Shown here: piece after piece, positions 2,261 to 24,262 of the stretch | How positions within the stretch are numbered: position 1 is the stretch's first letter | Layout: each line of letters opens with the position of its first letter | DNA from: a virus | Direction: 5' to 3' (one strand) | Virus record (IMG/VR): IMGVR_UViG_3300036845_000044 | Span: 1 to 29,010 of that record | DNA: 29,010 bases | Position numbers and translations under genes: made by a program | Notes under the pieces: generated by a model | The model's input: the letters and a program-made list of their open reading frames with translations, nothing else | What the model was told of the DNA's origin: nothing | The model's database searches: none

Positions 2261-2911
2261 TCAGGCGGGAATGGTCATTTCGTAAAAGGCGGTTATTGCA
2301 CCGTCGACATAGGCGAGGTCGTTCGGAACGCGATCGGCTTCGAACAATCCCATGGGACTTTTAACGGTGTCCCGGCCGCTGTTACGCGTGGTGAAGGTGT
2401 ACTCACCATCGTTGACATCGGTACGCAATACGATCGTCACAAGCCCTTCGATCGTGATTTTTTCGTCGAGCATCTTGCCGATCGTCTTGATCTTGGTATT
2501 GCCCGATTGATCTTCTTCGGTATGGCTTAGGATGTACATGCGCACATCGTCGGCGAGGTCTCCAGCGGCCATCAGAACGTCCCACGCGTGGCGCCCGATC
2601 TCTGTGAATTTGTCAAAACCGCGCTCGTCGCTGCGACGCATGAATTCGTTCGCGAGCATGTACTGGAAGTCGTCGAGCACGATTACCTTGCGCTGCGTCT
2701 TGCGCATAATCGCGATGATCTCGTCAGATTTGTCGGTCACGAAGATGTTTCCGGCCGGCGCTTCTTTCGTGCGGCGTGCCCATCCCTTACCTCGGAACGG
2801 GAGCGGCTTGCGAACCGTCTGGATCAAGAGGGTCTGTGCCGGGTCCATATTGGCCATGGAGTACGACTTGCCTGTTCCGGACTGGCCGAGGATTAACGAG
2901 GCAATGCTCAT
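2261..2911 (-). CDS. Sak4-like RecA-fold ATPase (AAA_24 type, 216 aa)
   Basis: Walker A is GQSGTGKS near the N-terminus (residues about 8-15), and a Walker-B-like strand is VIVLDDFQYML (residues about 78-88). This is the usual layout of phage Sak4/AAA_24 nucleotide-binding proteins, which act with an SSB in single-strand annealing; the SSB-like gene follows directly. I chose ATG 2911 because GGGAGATCGAA lies immediately upstream and it overlaps the HNH stop as ATGA. A longer frame to 2950 lacks a ribosome site. The ribosome site lies inside the 3' end of the HNH gene. Confidence 0.82.
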   Translation of the reverse strand: MSIASLILGQSGTGKSYSMANMDPAQTLLIQTVRKPLPFRGKGWARRTKEAPAGNIFVTDKSDEIIAIMRKTQRKVIVLDDFQYMLANEFMRRSDERGFDKFTEIGRHAWDVLMAAGDLADDVRMYILSHTEEDQSGNTKIKTIGKMLDEKITIEGLVTIVLRTDVNDGEYTFTTRNSGRDTVKSPMGLFEADRVPNDLAYVDGAITAFYEMTIPA

Positions 2912-3324
2912 TTCGATCTCCCGATCGACAGCGCTTTCTCTATCGACCATCCATAGGTATTAAGACGCATGGTGATAGTGTTTGACTTGACACCGAGACG
3001 CCGAGCCCACTCGGCGACAGACAAAGTCTCTCCGTTAAATGTCAGATTTCTGATACGGGACGTGTTCTTGCCTTGCTCGCTCATTGGCATCCATCTGCAG
3101 TTGCCAGGCTCATAGTCTCTATCGTTGTCGATTCGATCGAGGGTCATGCCGTTGCAATCGCCCATATCCGAATAGAAGTTTTCGAAGTCTTGCCAACGAT
3201 CACAGACCTTGATTCCACGTCCTCCATAGCGGTGATAGCGGACGTTAGAAGGCGTCTGGCAACGTCGCTTCATGTTCTTCCAGCATTCGTACTCGCGGGT
3301 TCTGCTTTTCTGATGTGTTTTCAT
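2908..3324 (-). CDS. HNH endonuclease A, free-standing homing type (138 aa)
   Basis: This is a phage HNH family protein: YECWKNMKRRC, then YGGRGIKVCDRW, GMTLDRIDND and YEPGNCRWM...EQGKN form the nuclease core (residues about 10-90). The C-terminus (LSVAEWARRLGVKSNTITMRL...GWSIEKAL) is a helix-turn-helix DNA-binding tail. The same core and tail recur in HNH D at 22220-22837. I chose ATG 3324 because AAGGAT lies upstream; an upstream in-frame start would deepen the overlap with the neighbour. The stop overlaps the Sak4 start. It overlaps the preceding small gene by 80 bases, unlike the 4-base overlaps around it, which suggests insertion. Confidence 0.85.
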   Translation of the reverse strand: MKTHQKSRTREYECWKNMKRRCQTPSNVRYHRYGGRGIKVCDRWQDFENFYSDMGDCNGMTLDRIDNDRDYEPGNCRWMPMSEQGKNTSRIRNLTFNGETLSVAEWARRLGVKSNTITMRLNTYGWSIEKALSIGRSK

Positions 3325-3415
3325 GATTTCGATATCCTTGTGATTCTTGCCATTCAATGAATTCTTGAAATTCTTCGATTTCCTGCTGCTGCCGCCATTC
3401 CGCGCCGTTGCTCAC
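3245..3415 (-). CDS. Small Gln/Glu-rich ORF, 3' end probably altered by the HNH insertion
   Basis: The GTG start at 3415 overlaps the stop of the upstream membrane-protein gene as GTGA, which supports translation. The peptide begins with EWRQQQEIEEFQEFIEWQE, a strongly helical Gln/Glu segment. The last 80 bases overlap the HNH A gene in another frame, so the C-terminal 25 or so residues are probably read from inserted DNA rather than being the original tail. Function unknown. Confidence 0.45.
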   Translation of the reverse strand: MSNGAEWRQQQEIEEFQEFIEWQESQGYRNHENTSEKQNPRVRMLEEHEATLPDAF

Positions 3416-4889: not shown

Positions 4890-5588
4890 TTATTCCGCGT
4901 CGATCATTCTCGAATACAAGTCGTGCGCGCTGGCCTGCAACTCGACCACGGTCGGCTCAAGCTTGGCTTTAGCGGCGGCCCCTGCGGCGGCCCGTGCGGC
5001 GGCCCGTGCGGCGTCCCCTGCGGCGGCCCCTGCGGCGTCCCATGCGGCGGCCCGTGCGGCGGCCCATGCGGCGGCCCGTGCGGCGGCCCCTGCGGCGGCC
5101 CATGCGGCGGCCCATGCGGCGTCCCCTGCGGCGGCCCATGCGGCGGCCGCATCTTTCCTGGCTGCATCAAGCTTCGGCTGTATCGCAATGAGGTCGGCGG
5201 TGCACGTGATCTGCGGATGTGCCTGAATTGCTTGAGCGTGATGCGCGAGGCCCGGGTTCAATGCAAGCCACGCAGCGCAGTGCACGCGGATCAGCCAGTC
5301 CATCGCCATCCATCCTCGCTTCTGCGAAAGCTCGGGCGTTTTGTTCGTGCCGGGCAGGCGAACGATGTATTGCTTGAGCTGCATGCGCTCTTCGTCCGAT
5401 CGCATGCAGTCGTTCCACGACATACCGAAACTACGGAGAACCGGATCGACGCATTCCGGCGCATCGCCAAACGGCTCGCCGGCAAACATGCTCACCACCT
5501 CGAGCAGGCAATGACCCTGTTCGGGCGTCTTGTGATTGCCGTGGTTCAGCGTGATTGCGTCCAGTTCTTCCAGCGTCAGTCGTTTCAC
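4890..5588 (-). CDS. First gene of leftward operon: protein with Ala-rich tandem-repeat tail (232 aa)
   Basis: I chose GTG 5588 because GGAGA lies just upstream; ATGs at 5642 and 5633 fall inside the promoter/operator and would lie upstream of or at the transcription start. Residues about 1-140 are ordinary globular sequence (LTLEELDAITLNHGNHKTPEQG; HCLLEVVSMFAGEPFGD; MAMDWLIRVHCAAWLALNPG). Residues about 146-205 are four-residue repeats A-(W/R/G)-(A/D)-A, encoded by a perfect 12-bp DNA repeat. A charged end (KAKLEPTVVELQASAHDLYS) follows. The repeat probably forms a long Ala-rich helix. Function unknown; it is the most promoter-proximal gene, a place where phages often put host-takeover or superinfection genes. 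Confidence 0.7.
   Translation of the reverse strand: MKRLTLEELDAITLNHGNHKTPEQGHCLLEVVSMFAGEPFGDAPECVDPVLRSFGMSWNDCMRSDEERMQLKQYIVRLPGTNKTPELSQKRGWMAMDWLIRVHCAAWLALNPGLAHHAQAIQAHPQITCTADLIAIQPKLDAARKDAAAAWAAAGDAAWAAAWAAAGAAARAAAWAAARAAAWDAAGAAAGDAARAAARAAAGAAAKAKLEPTVVELQASAHDLYSRMIDAE
4981..5148 (-). repeat. 14 exact-period 12-bp tandem repeats inside a coding region
   Basis: On the plus strand the unit is CvTGCGGCGkCC, repeated 14 times without a single indel. It varies only at the second base (C/G/A) and the tenth base (G/T). A partial unit lies at 4971-4980. On the coding strand each unit gives Ala-X-(Ala/Asp)-Ala with X = Gly, Arg or Trp. The clean phase suggests recent expansion by slippage, and copy number is likely to vary among relatives. 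Confidence 0.92.
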
Positions 5589-5631
5589 TTGTCTCTCCGG
5601 TCGGTGCTGCGTGTCGTGCAGCGTTAGAGAC

Positions 5632-5660
5632 ATCTTAGACATAGCCGTCTTAACTGTCAA
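5632..5660 (-). promoter_or_regulatory. PL-like early leftward promoter
   Basis: Reading the minus strand, TTGACA (5660-5655) is followed by exactly 17 bases and TAAGAT (5637-5632), a near-consensus sigma-70 promoter. It directs transcription into the Ala-rich gene and the whole leftward operon. Two repressor-type operators cover it, so it is very likely the PL equivalent. Confidence 0.85.
5635..5653. promoter_or_regulatory. Operator 1 on PL
   Basis: TTAGAC-N6-GTCTTAA is a palindrome overlapping the -10 and spacer of the leftward promoter. The same half-sites recur at 5657-5676 and at PR (6423-6443). Binding by the repressor or the Cro-like protein would block polymerase. Confidence 0.75.
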
Positions 5661-7540: not shown

Positions 7541-8278
7541 GTGCAAGAAAATCCACAGCTCGAGGATGGATACACAAGGCTCGCTAATGAGCTATTCGAC
7601 GCCATTCTTGCGTTTCCGTTTTCTGGGCGCCAACTGAAGGTTGTCATGACGATCATTCGGAAGACATATGGCTACAACAAGAAGCGCGACGACATGTCGG
7701 CTTCCCAGATCGCGAATGTATGCGGTATGGCGCGGCCGCATGTTGTGAAGACGCTCGGTGAATTGGCCGGTATGAACGTCATCGTGAAGCAGTCCGGCAA
7801 GTTTGGATCGCTTATCGAGATCAACAAGAAATACATGTCTTGGGGTAGTACCGAATTGGTATCACCTAGTACCGAATTGGTATCACGTGGTACCGAATCG
7901 GTACATGTACCGAAACAGTACTCCCCTAGTACCGAATCGGTACAGGTCGCTAGTACCGAATCGGTACACACAAAAGACAACCTTCCAAAAGACAACCAAC
8001 AAAAGACATTAGCGCCGAGCGAAAGAATCTCGCTCGACGCAGATGGCGTGTGGATCAATATCCCGGACGCCTTGATGGCGAATTGGGAACAAGCCTATCC
8101 AGCCCTTAGCCTGGAGGCGGAGCTTTCGAAAGCTGCCGCTTGGATCATCGCCAATCCGAAAAACAAAAAATCGAACTACGCACGCTTTCTCACGAACTGG
8201 CTGACGAGGGCGCAGGACAGCGCGCCTCGCCGTTCGACGAATGCGAATTCTGATAACCGTCCCAAGCTCGTGTACTGA
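7541..8278 (+). CDS. Lambda O-like replication initiator (245 aa)
   Basis: The N-terminal domain (YTRLANELFDAILAFPFSGR, then IIRKTYGYNKKRDDMSASQIANV, about residues 10-60) is the winged-helix signature of phage replication protein O. The middle, residues about 100-145, is a low-complexity stretch of repeated STE(L/S)V motifs dictated by DNA iterons that form the probable origin. The C-terminal half (WINIPDALMANWEQAYPALS; KNKKSNYARFLTNWLTRA) is typical of the partner-contact region. GTG 7541 is the only suitable start. The stop overlaps the next ATG. Role: bind the iterons and recruit the primase-helicase. Confidence 0.85.
   Translation: MQENPQLEDGYTRLANELFDAILAFPFSGRQLKVVMTIIRKTYGYNKKRDDMSASQIANVCGMARPHVVKTLGELAGMNVIVKQSGKFGSLIEINKKYMSWGSTELVSPSTELVSRGTESVHVPKQYSPSTESVQVASTESVHTKDNLPKDNQQKTLAPSERISLDADGVWINIPDALMANWEQAYPALSLEAELSKAAAWIIANPKNKKSNYARFLTNWLTRAQDSAPRRSTNANSDNRPKLVY
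7848..7967. repeat. Probable replication origin: six palindromic iterons inside the initiator gene
   Basis: Fifteen-base units GTACCGAATYGGTAY start at 7848, 7869, 7890, 7907 (variant, CGAAACAG core), 7929 and 7953. Each unit is itself close to a palindrome. Spacing is 21, 21, 17, 22 and 24 bases, about two helical turns. They are followed at 7968-8010 by an A-rich stretch with three AAAAGACAwyy repeats, like the unwinding element beside the lambda iterons. Confidence 0.85.
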
Positions 8279-8838
8279 TGAAAACCTTTATCGACTACGG
8301 CATCGACATCGGCAACCGTTCGGGCGTCGAGATCAAGACGACTTGCCCGCAGTGCTCCGCTGGCCGGAAGAAAGCCCTTGAACAACGTTTCGAGGAAAAC
8401 ACGATTCGCACCGAGAGCGGTTGCCAGGAGTGGATCGGCGCCAAGACAGACAAGGGGTATGGCTTGATCGAAGTGGATGGGAAGACGCGCCGCGCGCACC
8501 GAGTCGCCTACGAGCACTTCCAAGGGGCGATACCTGCTGGCATGTTGATCCTGCATCGCTGTGATAACCCGGCATGTGTGAACCCAGAGCATCTTCGCCC
8601 CGGCACCCAGGCCGAGAACATGCAGGACATGGTTGCTAAGGGTCGCCAGCGCATTGTGGTCACCGATGCGCGAAAGGGCCCAAAGTCGGCGTATGAGACA
8701 AACACAAGCGGACACGTCGGGGTCTACTCGATCCGTGGTGGTGCGCGTTGGGGCGCGAAGCTCGGGAATCGCTATCTCGGTTCATTCGCAACGTTCGATG
8801 AAGCGGTGGCTTGCCGCGCCCAGGCGGAGGCAGCATGA
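8278..8838 (+). CDS. HNH endonuclease B with AP2-like tail, fused to a duplicated primase N-terminus (186 aa)
   Basis: Residues 1-32 are a second copy of the primase start (FIDYGIDIG; EIKTTCPQCS; RKK), including the first CxxC half of its zinc finger. From about residue 33 the protein is an HNH nuclease: ESGCQEWIGAKTDKGYG, RRAHRVAYEHF, then the HNH core ILHRCDNPACVNPEHL. The C-terminus (NTSGHVGVYSIRGGARWGAK then YLGSFATFDEA) is an AP2-type DNA-binding domain. The ATG overlaps the initiator stop; the native start and ribosome context of primase therefore now drive the endonuclease. The stop overlaps the true primase ATG. It is related to HNH C, not to HNH A/D. Confidence 0.85.
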   Translation: MKTFIDYGIDIGNRSGVEIKTTCPQCSAGRKKALEQRFEENTIRTESGCQEWIGAKTDKGYGLIEVDGKTRRAHRVAYEHFQGAIPAGMLILHRCDNPACVNPEHLRPGTQAENMQDMVAKGRQRIVVTDARKGPKSAYETNTSGHVGVYSIRGGARWGAKLGNRYLGSFATFDEAVACRAQAEAA

Positions 8839-10544
8839 AAACTTGGTCCGACTTTGGGATTGATGTTGGTGGCCATGTTTCTGGCGAGATCAAGGCGCTA
8901 TGCCCGCAGTGCTCGCCTACCCGCAAGAAGAAGAATCTCAAGGTCCTGAATTGCAATCTCGACAAGGGAGTTTTTAATTGCTGGCATTGCTCGTGGTCGG
9001 GAACGCTCAAGGGTGGCGAATGGCAAAAGCCAGAGATCCGCAAGGTCTACACGAAGCCGACTTTCGTCAAGGTTGAGAAAAAGACTGACGAACTGCAGGC
9101 ATGGTTCGACACGCGCGGCATCTCCGCCGAGGTCGTGAAGCGTAACCAGATCACGCTGGGCAAGGAGTATTTCCCGCAAGTCGAGGAAGAGCGCGGTTGC
9201 GTGCTGTTCCCCTACTTCCGTGGCGAAGAAGTCATCAACATCAAGTACCGGACGCGCGACAAGCTTTTCCGCATGGCGTCGGGTGCAGAGCGAATTCTGT
9301 ACGGCATTAACGATATCAATCCGGACGTGCTGGTCTGGGTTGAGGGTGAGATCGACAAGCTATCCGTCGAAATGGCGGGGCTAATAAGCTGCGTATCGGT
9401 TCCTGACGGTGCGCCGGCTGCTGATTCGAAGTCGTACAGCAACAAGTTCGATTTTCTGACCGATAAAGCGCTCGAGGCCGTCAAGTTGCACATCATCGCT
9501 GTCGATAGCGATGAACCTGGCGTTCGGCTGCAGGAAGAGCTTGTTCGGCGCCTTGGCCGCGAGAAGTGCCTTGTCGCGGTGTGGCCGGAAGGCTGCAAGG
9601 ACGCAAATGAAGTTCTGCTGACGCACGGTGCCGATGTGGTCGCGGAGTGCCTGGCGAACGCGCGACCGCTGCCCATCGAAGGGACATACAGCGTCGACGA
9701 CATCTCGGAATCGATCTTCAACGACTACGAATACGGCCCGGAGCGCGGCATTTCGACCGACTGGCGCGTGATGGATGACACGTACCGTGTTATGGCCGGC
9801 GAGTGGACGCTTGTGACGGGCATCCCCGGTCATGGCAAGTCGGAATGGCTTGATGCGTTGGCGCTCAATCTGGCCGAGTCGCACGGCTGGTCGTTCGGCG
9901 TGTTCTCCCCGGAAAACCAGCCGATCAAGTACCACGTCGAAAAGATGGCTGAGAAGGTCATTGGCAAGCCCTTCATGAAAGGCCTGACGGAGCGCATGAC
10001 GCGCGACGAAGTGCAACGCGCGCTGTCGTTCATTAACGAGCACTTTCATTTCATGCTGCCGGAGTATCCGACGATCGAAGGGTTGCTCGAGATCGCCCAG
10101 CAGCTCGTGCTTCGCCACGGTATACGCGGTCTGATCATCGACCCGTGGAACGAGATCAACCCGCAGCGAGACGGGAGCGTTTCGGAGACGGACTATATCT
10201 CCCAGGCGCTCACGCGGATCCGCACGTTTGCCCGAAAGAACCAGGTGCACGTGTGGCTCGTGGCGCACCCGACAAAGCTGCGCAAGAACGACGACGGAAA
10301 GTACCCGGTGCCGACTCCGTACGACGTTTCCGGCTCGGCGCACTGGCGCAATAAAGCCGACAACTGCATCACGGTTTACCGCGACGTGATGACCGATGGC
10401 CCCGTTCAGGTGCACGTACAGAAGGTGCGTAAAAAAATGAACGGCAAGGTCGGCATGGTCGAGTTCGATTACGACAAGGTATGCGGCCGGTATCAGGCGC
10501 ACCACGTTGGCATCTTGCCGTATCGAAAGGCGAGAGCCGCATGA
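8835..10544 (+). CDS. Phage DNA primase-helicase (T7 gp4 type, 569 aa)
   Basis: I chose ATG 8835 because it overlaps the HNH stop (ATGA) and begins with the expected WSDFGIDVG start. Residues 23-50 hold a zinc finger (CPQC ... CNLDKGVFNCWHC). A TOPRIM domain follows (VWVEGEIDKLSVEMAG near 175-190, and IIAVDSDEPG near 227-236). A RecA-like helicase domain has Walker A GIPGHGKSEW near 335 and LIIDPWNEINP near 435 as the Walker B region. C-terminal residues include a GSAHWRNKADN sensor-like segment. Role: unwind DNA and make primers at forks started by the O-like protein. The first codons carry more A/T-ending codons than the copy at 8278. Confidence 0.9.
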   Translation: MKTWSDFGIDVGGHVSGEIKALCPQCSPTRKKKNLKVLNCNLDKGVFNCWHCSWSGTLKGGEWQKPEIRKVYTKPTFVKVEKKTDELQAWFDTRGISAEVVKRNQITLGKEYFPQVEEERGCVLFPYFRGEEVINIKYRTRDKLFRMASGAERILYGINDINPDVLVWVEGEIDKLSVEMAGLISCVSVPDGAPAADSKSYSNKFDFLTDKALEAVKLHIIAVDSDEPGVRLQEELVRRLGREKCLVAVWPEGCKDANEVLLTHGADVVAECLANARPLPIEGTYSVDDISESIFNDYEYGPERGISTDWRVMDDTYRVMAGEWTLVTGIPGHGKSEWLDALALNLAESHGWSFGVFSPENQPIKYHVEKMAEKVIGKPFMKGLTERMTRDEVQRALSFINEHFHFMLPEYPTIEGLLEIAQQLVLRHGIRGLIIDPWNEINPQRDGSVSETDYISQALTRIRTFARKNQVHVWLVAHPTKLRKNDDGKYPVPTPYDVSGSAHWRNKADNCITVYRDVMTDGPVQVHVQKVRKKMNGKVGMVEFDYDKVCGRYQAHHVGILPYRKARAA

Positions 10545-20368: not shown

Positions 20369-20971
20369 ATGGTTGAATGTTGCATCAAAGGTTGTGAAAA
20401 GGCGTCCAAATCGCGTGGCATGTGCAACACGCATTACGAGCGCTATCGGCTTGGGCGGAATGTTTCTGCTGACGCCCCAAAGCAATATCACGGGCTCAGT
20501 AATCAGGACCGTTTTGAAAAGTATTTCAAGGCCGATGAGTCTGGTTGTTGGCTTTGGCTTGGCTCACTGAACAACAAGGGATATGGGCAGTTCAATCTGA
20601 AGGGTGATCGCCCCGTTCCGGCGCATCGAGCCTCATGGTTGATCTACAAGGGCGTGATTCCAGTGAATCCGGAAAGCGCTTATCAGACGCTGTATGTGCT
20701 CCACCGTTGCGACAATCCAAAATGCGTCAATCCTGAGCACCTGTTTTTGGGTTCGCAGCAGGGAAACATGGACGACAAGATGCAGAAGGGCCGTCATGCG
20801 TATGGCGTCTCGCTCGGCGTCGATCATGGCAATGCAAAGATGAACGAACAAATTGTCCGAGAGATACGCGCAAGCGCGGAATCCGATGCAGTTCTCTCGA
20901 AAAAATATGGCATCTCGCGAGCGAGTATCTACGCCGCGCGGCGCCGGCAGACATGGAAGCACGTCACCTAA
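20369..20971 (+). CDS. HNH endonuclease C, free-standing homing type (200 aa)
   Basis: An N-terminal zinc finger (ECCIKGCEKASKSRGMCNTH, residues 3-22) is followed by an HNH_3 nuclease domain: DESGCWLWLGSLNNKGYGQF, VPAHRASWLIYKGVIPV, then the HNH core VLHRCDNPKCVNPEHLFLGS with KMQKGRHAYG. The C-terminus (AVLSKKYGISRASIYAARRR) is a helix-turn-helix. The nuclease core resembles HNH B. Codon use is more A/T-ending than the capsid genes, a sign of recent arrival. It sits between coat and a terminator, with translation probably controlled by the hairpin at 20321-20362. Confidence 0.88.
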   Translation: MVECCIKGCEKASKSRGMCNTHYERYRLGRNVSADAPKQYHGLSNQDRFEKYFKADESGCWLWLGSLNNKGYGQFNLKGDRPVPAHRASWLIYKGVIPVNPESAYQTLYVLHRCDNPKCVNPEHLFLGSQQGNMDDKMQKGRHAYGVSLGVDHGNAKMNEQIVREIRASAESDAVLSKKYGISRASIYAARRRQTWKHVT

Positions 20972-21027: not shown

Positions 21028-21366
21028 ATGTCACACACCTACGAATACCAGGAATTCCCCAAGTGGACTCGCAACGGCGATAAGGAGCGACTCGTCCACT
21101 CTCGCGAAGAGCTTGAGGCGCTTGGGGATGGATGGTCCGACCATAAATATGTCGCCCCCAAGACGATCATTGAGGGTGAAAATTTCCAAAAGTATCCAAT
21201 GTGGGTCGGCTCGGTGCTCGTGAATAGCGCTGAAGAAGAGGCCGCATTGGGGGAGCCAGACACCGACGAGCGCACCGCACTGTTCCAGATCGCTGCCGAA
21301 AAGGGCGTGAAGATCGACAAGCGCTGGTCGACTGAGAAGATCCGCGCTGCGCTGGAGGCCGCGTGA
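21028..21366 (+). CDS. Head-tail region protein with C-terminal HeH/LEM-like domain (112 aa)
   Basis: I chose ATG 21028 because GAGGA lies just upstream. Residues 1-70 (TYEYQEFPKWTRNGDKERLV; YPMWVGSVLVNSAEEEAALG) are of an unrecognised type. Residues about 75-112 (ERTALFQIAAEKGVKIDKRW then STEKIRAALEAA) form a HeH/LEM-like helical hairpin often found in small phage structural proteins. The stop overlaps the gp4-like GTG. Role probably in head completion, inferred from position. Confidence 0.62.
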   Translation: MSHTYEYQEFPKWTRNGDKERLVHSREELEALGDGWSDHKYVAPKTIIEGENFQKYPMWVGSVLVNSAEEEAALGEPDTDERTALFQIAAEKGVKIDKRWSTEKIRAALEAA

Positions 21367-22079
21367 CAACCGCCGTCGACCTGATCACGCTCGCGCTGAA
21401 GGACATCGGCGCGCTCGGCGTGGGTCAGGCGATCTCGGCAGAGGACACCGCCGATGCGCTTGCCACGCTGAACATGCTGATGGATCAGCTTTCGGTTGAG
21501 CGGTTGAGCGTCTTTCACCTGGTCGATACCGCGCATCAGGCGAATGGATCGGTGTCGTACACGGTCGGCCCCGGTGGCGATTTCAATATCCCGCGGCCGG
21601 TCAAGATCAACGCCGCGTACGCACGCCTGCAAAGCAGCGGAGCAGGGAGTGCGGTCGATTACCGGATCACCATGATTGACGCGCGCGAGGACTATGCGCG
21701 GATCAGCCTCAAGACGCTCGTTTCGTTCCCGGAATACGCATTCCTCGATACCGCGTATCCGCTCGCGAACCTGATTCTTTACCCGGTGCCGAACAGCAGC
21801 TACGAGCTGCATATCGTCACGATGGACGTGCTGCAGCAGTTCGCCACAGCCGCGACCGTCGTCAACCTGCCGGGGCCGTACAAGGCGCTGCTTCGCTACA
21901 GCCTCGCTATCTATCTGGCGCCGTCGTATCAGCTTGAGCCGACACCGTCGCTGGTGAAGCTCGCGATGAATGCGAAGCGCGTCGTCAAAAGAATGAATGT
22001 CCAGATTCCTTCGCTGACCATGCCGCGCGGACTGATGTCGAAGTCGCGCTATAACATCTACAGCGACACGGAATACTGA
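21363..22079 (+). CDS. P22 gp4-like packaged DNA stabilisation / head-tail adaptor (238 aa)
   Basis: GTG 21363 overlaps the previous stop with GGAGG upstream. The N-terminus VDLITLALKDIGALGVGQAI then ALATLNMLMDQLSVERL is the helical signature of P22 gp4-type adaptors, which bind below the portal and close the channel after packaging. Beta-rich middle (SVSYTVGPGGDFNIPRPVKI) and helical C-terminus with ending SDTEY follow. The stop overlaps the first ATG of the duplicated gp10 start (22079). A diverged copy of its last five codons appears at 22142-22159. Confidence 0.82.
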   Translation: MTTAVDLITLALKDIGALGVGQAISAEDTADALATLNMLMDQLSVERLSVFHLVDTAHQANGSVSYTVGPGGDFNIPRPVKINAAYARLQSSGAGSAVDYRITMIDAREDYARISLKTLVSFPEYAFLDTAYPLANLILYPVPNSSYELHIVTMDVLQQFATAATVVNLPGPYKALLRYSLAIYLAPSYQLEPTPSLVKLAMNAKRVVKRMNVQIPSLTMPRGLMSKSRYNIYSDTEY

Positions 22080-22159
22080 TGCGCATCCCTCTCACCAGCG
22101 GTGCGTATCAGGCGCAGAGCGTCATTGCGAACGCGCAGCGCAGCGATATGGAATATTAG
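22079..22159 (+). pseudogene. Truncated native 5' end of gp10 joined to a copy of the gp4 C-terminus
   Basis: Bases 22079-22144 are 22 G/C-ending codons encoding MRIPLTSGAYQAQSVIAN then AQRS, the natural gp10 start overlapping the gp4 stop. The frame then reads GAT ATG GAA TAT TAG, giving S-D-M-E-Y-stop with the preceding AGC, which mirrors the gp4 ending S-D-T-E-Y-stop with changed third bases. So a 26-codon remnant remains upstream of HNH D while a complete diverged gp10 start lies at 22838. The remnant is probably still translated from the gp4 context. Confidence 0.88.
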
Positions 22160-22219
22160 GATAGCTAATGTATAGCGGTTTCCTGATGTATACTTATCCA
22201 ATTAACTTTGGAGGTGTAC

Positions 22220-22837
22220 ATGGTCGCTTCAATTGATATTTCTGGCAAAAAGTTTGCCCGCTGGACAGTTCTTTCATTTCATGGGTCTGTCAACAAAAAA
22301 CGGATGTGGAACTGCATCTGTGAGTGCGGCACGGAAATGAAGGTGAATGGGACATCCCTAAGAATGGGGGTCTCAAAATCATGTGGATGTCTCAGCGCAG
22401 ATAACGTAAGGACGCGCTTGACGAAGCACGGAATGACCAAGCATCCGCTATTTGGCGTATGGAAGGGAATGCTGTCGCGTTGCAACAATCCCCATGCCAA
22501 GTCATTCCCTGACTATGGCGGCAGGGGCATAAAAGTCTGTGACAGGTGGTTAGATTTCAAGGCATTTCACGACGACATGATCGATGCGTACGGACCCGGC
22601 ATGACGATCGAGAGAAAAGATAACGAAGAGGGTTATTCGCCAGGAAATTGCACGTGGATACCAAAAGCCGAGCAAAACAGGAATCGACGGTCGGTAATTT
22701 TCATCGATACGCCAGTAGGTCGACTCTCAATATCCGATGCTGCAAGAGTTGCCGGTGTGAGTTGGTTTGCCATCAGCAATAGGGTTAAGAAGGGTTGGTC
22801 CATTGAAACTATTCTTTCACCTGCGAGAGGGAAGTAG
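22220..22837 (+). CDS. HNH endonuclease D, free-standing homing type (205 aa)
   Basis: ATG 22220 follows a strong GGAGGTG. An N-terminal domain with C..C and CGC cysteines (MWNCICECGTEMKVNGTSLR; KSCGC, residues about 30-60) precedes the nuclease core (FGVWKGMLSRCNNP; YGGRGIKVCDRWLDFKAF; GMTIERKDNEEGYSPGNCTW). A C-terminal helix-turn-helix (LSISDAARVAGVSWFAISNR then GWSIETIL) matches HNH A. The stop codon abuts the gp10 ATG and the gp10 ribosome site (GAGAGGGAAG) lies in the HNH 3' end. Codon use is clearly more A/T-ending than the flanking tail genes. Confidence 0.9.
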   Translation: MVASIDISGKKFARWTVLSFHGSVNKKRMWNCICECGTEMKVNGTSLRMGVSKSCGCLSADNVRTRLTKHGMTKHPLFGVWKGMLSRCNNPHAKSFPDYGGRGIKVCDRWLDFKAFHDDMIDAYGPGMTIERKDNEEGYSPGNCTWIPKAEQNRNRRSVIFIDTPVGRLSISDAARVAGVSWFAISNRVKKGWSIETILSPARGK

Positions 22838-24262
22838 ATGCGAATTCCTTTGACCAGTGGGGCATACCAGGCACAAAGCGTAATAAGTGAAGCCCAAAGG
22901 TCGGTCAACCTGTACGGTGAAGCGAACCCGCAGGACGCGCCGTGTCCGTTCACGTATTACCCGACGCCGGGCCTGACGCTTGTCTCGACGCCGCCGGTCG
23001 CAGGGGAAAGCCGCGGCATCTACACGGCGAGCAATGGCAAACGGTACGAGGTCGTGGGCGATGGCATCTACTCGGTAGCGGATGACGAGACGTACACGCA
23101 ACTCGGCTCGCTGACGACTAACTCCGGCCCGGTGTCGATGGTCGATAACAGCCTCGACATGTTCATCGTGGATGGCAGCGTATCTGGATTCACGGTCAAC
23201 CTCACCACGAACGTGCTGTCGGCGGTCACGGACCCTTCGTTTCTCGGTGCCGACAAGGTTGATTTCGTCGATACGTTCTTCGTCTTCAACCGTCCCGATA
23301 CGCAGCAGTTTTACATCGGTCTATCGAACAGTACCGGCTTCGATCCGCTCGATATCGCGGCCAAGTCGACCTATTCGGACAAGCTAGTGACGCTGGCGGT
23401 GATGCACCGCGAGATATGGCTGTTCGGCGCGCTGACGACCGAGGTCTGGTACAACACCGGCGCCTCGGATTTCACGTTCGGCCGCATGCCGGGCGTGTTC
23501 ATCGAGCACGGCTGCGCGGCGAAACACTCAGTCGCGAAGATCGATCTTGCGCTCTTCTGGCTCGGGAGTGACCTTCAGGGGCAGGGCGTCGTGTACGCCG
23601 GCCGTAATTACCTGTCCGAGCGCATCTCGACGCATGCGATCGAGCAGGAAATCGCTACCTACGCGCGGATTGATGACGCGATCGGCTTCTCCTACCTGCA
23701 GAACGGCCACGCGTTCTACTTTCTGACGTTTCCGACCGCGAACGTGACGTGGTGCTTCGATGTCGTCACGTCGCAGTGGCACCAGCGCGCGTTTCTCGAA
23801 GCGGATGGGACGCTGAGCCGGCACCGCGCGAACTGCTATTCGTTCAATCAGGGGCGTTGCCTGGTCGGTGACTGGGAAACCGGGCTCGTCTACCATTTCG
23901 ACCTGAACGCTTTCACCGACAACGGCGTGACGATCGAATATATCCGCGGTTTTCCGCACATTTCGGGCGCCGACGGTAACCGCGTGCTGTTCCGCCAGTT
24001 CATCGCGGATATGGAGGTTGGAAACGGCCTTCCTGACGACTCAGACAGTCCTGAAATCCGGCTGCGCTGGAGCGATGACCGCGGGCGTAGCTGGGGTAAC
24101 TGGGTCGTGGCGTCGCTTGGCAAGGTCGGCGAGTACCTGACATCGATCCAGTATCAGCGGCTCGGCTACGCGCGCGATCGCGTGTTCGAACTGTCGTGGT
24201 CGGCACCGGTCAAGACCGCGCTGAACGGCGCATTCGTTGACGTTTCGCGGGCCCGCACATGA
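22838..24262 (+). CDS. P22 gp10-like tail hub / packaged DNA stabilisation protein (474 aa)
   Basis: The protein has the P22 gp10 type: start MRIPLTSGAYQAQSVISEAQ, then SVNLYGEANP, a beta-propeller-like body with IYSVADDETYTQLGSL, WLFGALTTEVWYNTG, KIDLALFWLGSDLQGQGVVY, and a C-terminal IRLRWSDDRGRSWG and RVFELSWSAPVKT. It plugs the tail below gp4. The first 22 codons (22838-22903) are mostly A/T-ending and differ from the native copy at 22079; from codon 23 (GTC AAC CTG) the codon style is again native. So the 5' end was supplied with HNH D. Confidence 0.88.
   Translation: MRIPLTSGAYQAQSVISEAQRSVNLYGEANPQDAPCPFTYYPTPGLTLVSTPPVAGESRGIYTASNGKRYEVVGDGIYSVADDETYTQLGSLTTNSGPVSMVDNSLDMFIVDGSVSGFTVNLTTNVLSAVTDPSFLGADKVDFVDTFFVFNRPDTQQFYIGLSNSTGFDPLDIAAKSTYSDKLVTLAVMHREIWLFGALTTEVWYNTGASDFTFGRMPGVFIEHGCAAKHSVAKIDLALFWLGSDLQGQGVVYAGRNYLSERISTHAIEQEIATYARIDDAIGFSYLQNGHAFYFLTFPTANVTWCFDVVTSQWHQRAFLEADGTLSRHRANCYSFNQGRCLVGDWETGLVYHFDLNAFTDNGVTIEYIRGFPHISGADGNRVLFRQFIADMEVGNGLPDDSDSPEIRLRWSDDRGRSWGNWVVASLGKVGEYLTSIQYQRLGYARDRVFELSWSAPVKTALNGAFVDVSRART

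Follow-up and report, generated by a model that had tools for sequence, protein, structure and literature searches.

The window analysed here comprises the 29,010 bases of one virus record. At the locus of interest it carries gp4, the endonuclease gene HNH D and gp10, and the frames of all three are intact (Table 1). The gp10 product is the head closure protein Hc3 of the P22 gp10 type, with the full protein spanning codons 1 to 474. Upstream of HNH D, a fragment corresponding to the gp10 start now forms a dead-end frame of 26 residues, and the TAG stop of HNH D directly abuts the ATG of the intact gp10. This bears out the first-pass annotation, which had described an endonuclease that splits gp10 while providing a new 5' end and start codon for it. 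A promoter scan found no sigma-70 promoter ahead of HNH D. In addition, a group I intron was considered for the locus and rejected, because no Rfam match was found between 21900 and 23100 and the downstream gene is complete by itself.

Table 1. Features of the gp4/HNH D/gp10 and primase loci of the window (L numbers denote loci compared in the text)
Feature	Position	Strand	Basis or remark
gp4 (recipient)	21363..22079	+	Stop TGA overlaps ATG of upstream gp10 fragment
Displaced native gp10 5' end, codons 1-22 (recipient)	22079..22144	+	Similarity to L001/L002
Probable donor gp4 end	22142..22159	+	AGC GAT ATG GAA TAT TAG, reading SDMEY-stop; inferred from 4-5 residues
Possible relic of gp10 codons 16-22 (decayed), from donor element	22161..22179	+	Shuffle comparison
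HNH D ribosome site GGAGG	22210..22214	+	Sequence
HNH D, 205 aa, ATG 22220 to stop 22837	22220..22837	+	phrog_374
Recoded gp10 codons 1-22, element-borne, start of intact gp10	22838..22903	+	Codon and base comparison
gp10 codon 23 to stop, recipient sequence	22904..24262	+	phrog_578, E 4e-112; closest to L001/L002
Copy of primase codons 1-32, in-frame fusion to HNH B	8278..8373	+	Alignment score 102 to primase start
HNH B (HNH_3), stop overlaps primase ATG	8374..8838	+	PF13392, E 3.8e-14
Diverged start of intact primase-helicase (8835-10544)	8835..8930	+	Closest to L387

The two copies of the gp10 start are equal at 20/22 residues and 42/66 bases. Another codon is used for 15 of the 20 shared residues, 17 of the 24 base changes fall at third positions, and the longest identical run in register is at most 5 bases. 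G or C occupies the third position (GC3) in 18/22 codons of the upstream copy and in 10/22 of the downstream copy, and the corresponding values are 0.80 for the gp10 body and 0.53 for HNH D. The counts of residues, bases, codons and GC3 given in the first-pass annotation were all reproduced from the sequence, and a codon-by-codon comparison likewise places the return of the native codon style at gp10 codon 23.

The upstream fragment equals L001 at 60/66 bases and L002 at 59/66, and the same two loci have the bodies closest to that of gp10, which is 92-93% identical to them from codon 23 on. Judged from these identities, the upstream fragment and gp10 codons 23-474 are parts of one recipient gene, and the HNH gene with the recoded codons 1-22 is foreign to that gene, that is, the invader. 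Meanwhile, the gp4 of the window is only 71% identical to those of L001 and L002, so that a change of lineage lies near the gp4/gp10 border.

Viral and bacterial collections were scanned for relatives, which gave 82 close gp10 relatives, a set that was later extended. The gp4/gp10 site is empty in nearly all of some 80 close relatives: the stop of gp4 either overlaps the gp10 start codon or lies almost against it, and an overlap of the form TGATG or TAATG is the rule at these junctions. Related phages with an empty site, which had been proposed as a check, are therefore present in quantity, TGATG being found at most gp4-gp10 junctions. A duplication in relatives without the HNH gene, which would have spoken against the earlier reading, occurs at none of the loci examined. 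In L046, L047, L050, L052, L071, L076, L115, L118/L269 and L247, an HNH gene of the same family lies cleanly between the gp4 stop and gp10. The HNH gene is thus sporadic and its relatives include empty sites, as expected of a homing endonuclease. HNH D is nearest to the HNH protein of L247 (65% identity over the whole length, and 53% to that of L115), yet the gp10 of L247 is only 75% identical, and L001 and L002, whose gp10 is nearest, are both without the HNH gene. Because their nearest relatives differ, HNH D and gp10 differ in history; and since the HNH relatives sit cleanly at the gp4/gp10 junction, the HNH gene of the window appears to come from an element line that is at home there. A search of 50,697 records gave, among its best matches, no annotated phage with an HNH gene directly before gp10. 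In bacterial genomes from the family of L081, one prophage-type locus (L469) has an HNH gene before gp10 without the duplication. HNH genes were also observed upstream of gp4 in the more distant relatives L138, L140, L142, L126 and L134, and in L138 and L140 they flank gp4 on both sides.

The 1.2 kb upstream of gp10 was searched for a copy of the gp10 head in 175 distinct loci. The window scored 96, L327 111 and L287 87, and the next best score was 36; because the three values lie so far above it, the duplication of the gp10 start is more than chance. A match in L347 was discarded as a script artefact at a contig end. L327 and L287 are two independent viral loci in which, as in the window, an HNH gene is flanked by a duplicated and recoded start of gp10. 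In L287 (reverse complement, about 7838-8700) a gp10 start fragment, an HNH gene and a recoded gp10 start follow one another, and the break falls inside codon 20. In L327 (2452-3144) the gp10 start is duplicated and recoded around an HNH gene on the opposite strand, and the break falls after codon 29. The downstream copy is always lower in G/C third positions, with 18 going to 10 in the window, and 18 to 11 and 17 to 9 in the other two loci. L462, from a second metagenome, is the same locus as L327 (99.98% identity over 4.3 kb), and a single extra base puts the L462 copy into another frame. These loci bear on the suspicion that the window, a record of 29,010 bases without reads, is an assembly chimera of two phages. 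The same arrangement in unrelated contigs, one of them found again in another metagenome, together with the intact frames and the repetition of the pattern by HNH B at another gene, makes a chimera highly improbable.

The upstream 26-residue frame might, instead of being a relic, be a working short gene, for instance one that encodes a leader peptide or acts as a translational coupler of HNH D, since both the stop/start overlap with gp4 and the open frame are kept. However, L247 retains only a short remnant, the clean relatives have no copy at all, and the copy in L462 is shifted out of frame relative to that of L327; we consider such a function unlikely.

A second case of the gp10-type arrangement is present in the same window and had gone unnoticed in the first-pass annotation: HNH B together with the start of the primase gene (Table 1). 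The upstream primase copy is equal to the primases of the empty sites L389 and L390 at 82/96 and 80/96 bases, respectively. The start of the intact primase agrees with the upstream copy at 19/32 residues and 63/96 bases, and with L387 at 70/96 bases. For HNH A (2908-3357, minus strand) and HNH C (20369-20971, plus strand) no duplicated start of the following gene was found, and their scores were below those of shuffles. As a separate observation, the gene at 4890-5660 on the minus strand contains a long Ala/Trp-rich tandem repeat (AAWAAAGDAAWAAAWAAAG...).

The first-pass annotation left open whether the downstream head of gp10 is recoded or merely a diverged donor flank. Under the flank reading, the element passively took with it the start of gp10 from a distant phage lower in G/C, whose divergence would be ordinary and unselected. 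The A/T-richer composition of the HNH gene and of the presumed end of the donor gp4 agrees with this. We compared the window with natural pairs of gp10 heads, part of which were chosen by codon pattern. The natural pairs that agree at 20/22 residues number 220; they share ancestry and provide counts rather than probabilities. In them, the share of equal residues with different codons reaches a maximum of 0.68, against 15/19 (0.79) in the window, and the equal bases a minimum of 46, against 42/66. Natural pairs of this kind are thus never so diverged, which argues against a passive flank, as does the position of the changes. Codons 1-14 of the two copies are equal at 32/42 bases and codons 15-22 at 10/24, so that divergence is maximal beside the insertion point, whereas in 901 natural pairs with at least 19 residues equal, codons 15-22 are equal at no fewer than 12/24 bases everywhere. 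In the sequences compared, the recoding surpasses natural divergence and peaks at codons 15-22 next to the insertion point. In addition, the peptide of the downstream head is closest to that of L002 and to the window's own native fragment, and its QAQ at positions 11-13 is shared only by L001, L002 and that fragment; the DNA, however, is no closer to L001/L002 than to other clades, which a passive flank would hardly produce. The odd codons read AGT-GAA-GCC-CAA-AGG in the window and AGT-AAC-GCC-CAA-AGG in L247 and L115. In these three loci ordinary codons return at codon 23, and in L327 too the odd codon use ends near the end of the head, again contrary to passive carriage.

Meanwhile, other observations favour the flank. 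The heads behind the HNH genes of L046, L050, L076, L118 and L138 are not unusually diverged, so that recoding is not universal at occupied sites; the primase start downstream of HNH B does resemble another lineage, L387; and comparable fungal cases were attributed to transfer out of a different species (PMC3630166). A few loci without an HNH gene, such as L306, also share the odd codons. In favour of recoding, heads behind HNH genes are lower in GC3 than their bodies: head minus body averages -0.16 against +0.01, with p 2e-5 over loci that are not independent. On balance, a passive flank is a possible but less likely candidate. The choice now leans to recoding, in view of a peptide of the recipient's own clade, a distant DNA sequence and changes concentrated beside the insertion, and we estimate selected recoding to be about twice as likely as the passive carriage of a donor flank.

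Two features that the first-pass annotation overlooked suggest where the invader came from. Directly behind the upstream fragment, 15 bases encode DMEY and a stop, as a gp4 gene would end, and the 19 bases that follow look like what is left of gp10 codons 16-22 after decay. The gp4 of relatives ends in SDTEY or SDRPY, TAG is the gp4 stop in HNH-bearing close relatives, and the distance from the gp4 stop to the HNH ATG is 60 nt in the window and 51-57 nt in relatives. The SDMEY-stop is apparently the end of a donor gp4, a resemblance of four to five residues, and the left join may fall within codon 22 of the recipient gp10, where both sequences have AGCG. The putative remnant, ATAGCTAATGTATAGCGGT against native gp10 ATCGCTAACGCACAGCGGT, was equalled by 3 of 100 shuffles. 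At the same place L247 contains an exact 18-base remnant of native gp10 that was equalled by 0 of 100 shuffles, suggesting that the clean form of L247 probably began as an insertion in gp10, most of the native head having been lost by deletion afterwards. Remnants noticed by eye in L115, L046, L050, L076 and L269 were rejected, being not significant against shuffles. Most likely, the arrangement was not born in the gp10 of the window, and the donor already had the HNH gene between gp4 and gp10. A donor phage with a gp10 start matching the recoded head, which the first-pass annotation had proposed to look for, was not found by a degenerate pattern, an HNH search or a gp10 search.

HNH D matches the PHROG family of HNH endonucleases (phrog_374) with an E value of 1e-64, and it is a protein of the homing-endonuclease type with a Cys-rich N-terminus. 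Pfam and NCBIfam searches gave no match, and the predicted fold (AlphaFold, pLDDT 91) had no significant match in the PDB, with no solved nuclease matched. Therefore, HNH D is placed in the homing-nuclease family by its sequence family, the nuclease call resting on PHROG families.

HNH D and the recoded gp10 codons 1-22 probably move together as a single unit, a homing endonuclease element of the free-standing kind. In the proposed course of events, HNH D would cut an unoccupied gp10 near codon 22, in the conserved stretch AQR-C/S-VNLY, and the broken right end, from codon 23 on, would pair with the homologous gp10 of an element-bearing, co-infecting phage. Copying would then proceed leftward through the recoded head and the HNH gene and, here, also the last codons of the donor gp4. 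Because the donor head is recoded, the left end would lack a good match in the donor, and it would be joined at AGCG, a short stretch common to both, with the native head left behind upstream. gp10 would then be read from the ATG directly after the HNH stop, and it would still work because the element carries a rewritten copy of the severed part. The synonymous recoding, heaviest in codons 15-22, would lower the susceptibility of the occupied gene to the predicted enzyme and make the recoded head a poor recombination partner for the native copy. On a wider scale, we see an even chance that phages carry natural home-and-rescue elements, in which HNH homing genes are coupled to a selected synonymous rewrite of the 5' end of their target. 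Such elements, immune to their own nuclease and able to rescue an essential gene, would be recurrent at gp10 in several phage groups, with a parallel primase case in the same genome. A selfish nuclease with neither intron nor intein could then occupy an essential phage gene by replacing the part it severs. This would account for the short second copies of a gene start that lie next to HNH genes in phages, a feature that annotation readily misses, and it allows a direct test of whether synonymous sites are under selection for nuclease immunity.

Endonuclease elements are known to replace gene ends in fungal mitochondria, namely in atp6 of Allomyces and in atp6, atp9, cox2 and nad3 of Glomus sp. 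(PMC3630166). As in the window, an endonuclease gene occupies an essential gene and supplies a new end for it, near-identical in protein and diverged in DNA, the native end is stranded, and relatives with empty sites exist. The degree of divergence is also alike, with 63.5% DNA and 91% protein identity between the Glomus atp6 copies (PMC3630166) and 64% and 91% between the gp10 copies. Diverged DNA, a conserved protein and a stranded native end, which characterize a replaced gene end, are found together in the window, L287 and L327. However, the fungal elements replace the 3' end, encode LAGLIDADG or GIY-YIG enzymes and reside in mitochondria, whereas the window element replaces the 5' end of a phage gene and is of the HNH type. 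It therefore works like the fungal mORF type but is not filed as a member, and since a 5' end is replaced, it must also bring a start codon and a ribosome site. The window case would thus be the 5'-end phage counterpart of the fungal replacements. We found no phage element that replaces a 5' end in the open-access literature, which, with subscription papers outside this scope, is weak evidence of novelty. Mobile elements in Tremella mitochondria likewise carry and exchange a homologue of a host gene fragment, but they are introns or former introns (PMC7315562), and there is no intron at the window locus.

In phages, homing of the free-standing T4 endonucleases by break repair with co-conversion is established (PMC2988022). 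The T4-like seg and mob genes resemble the window in placing a nuclease gene beside an essential gene, with co-conversion of flanks and a cut site apart from the insertion site; however, the passages of that review considered here describe no displaced gene fragment or recoded replacement, and the terms 'duplicat' and 'synonymous' are absent from its text (PMC2988022). HNH and other phage nucleases are also reported to cluster at essential genes and to mark boundaries of exchange (PMC10448857). There, genes are interrupted via introns or split proteins, and a word search of that study gave no replacement 5' end. The element of the window may further be a natural precedent for engineered cut-and-rescue drives. 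HomeR cuts an essential gene and supplies 22 or 27 recoded residues beside the cut, which keeps the drive copy working and protects it from cleavage (PMC7968924); it is a synthetic CRISPR system in flies that rebuilds a 3' end, and it parallels the phage element by analogy only.
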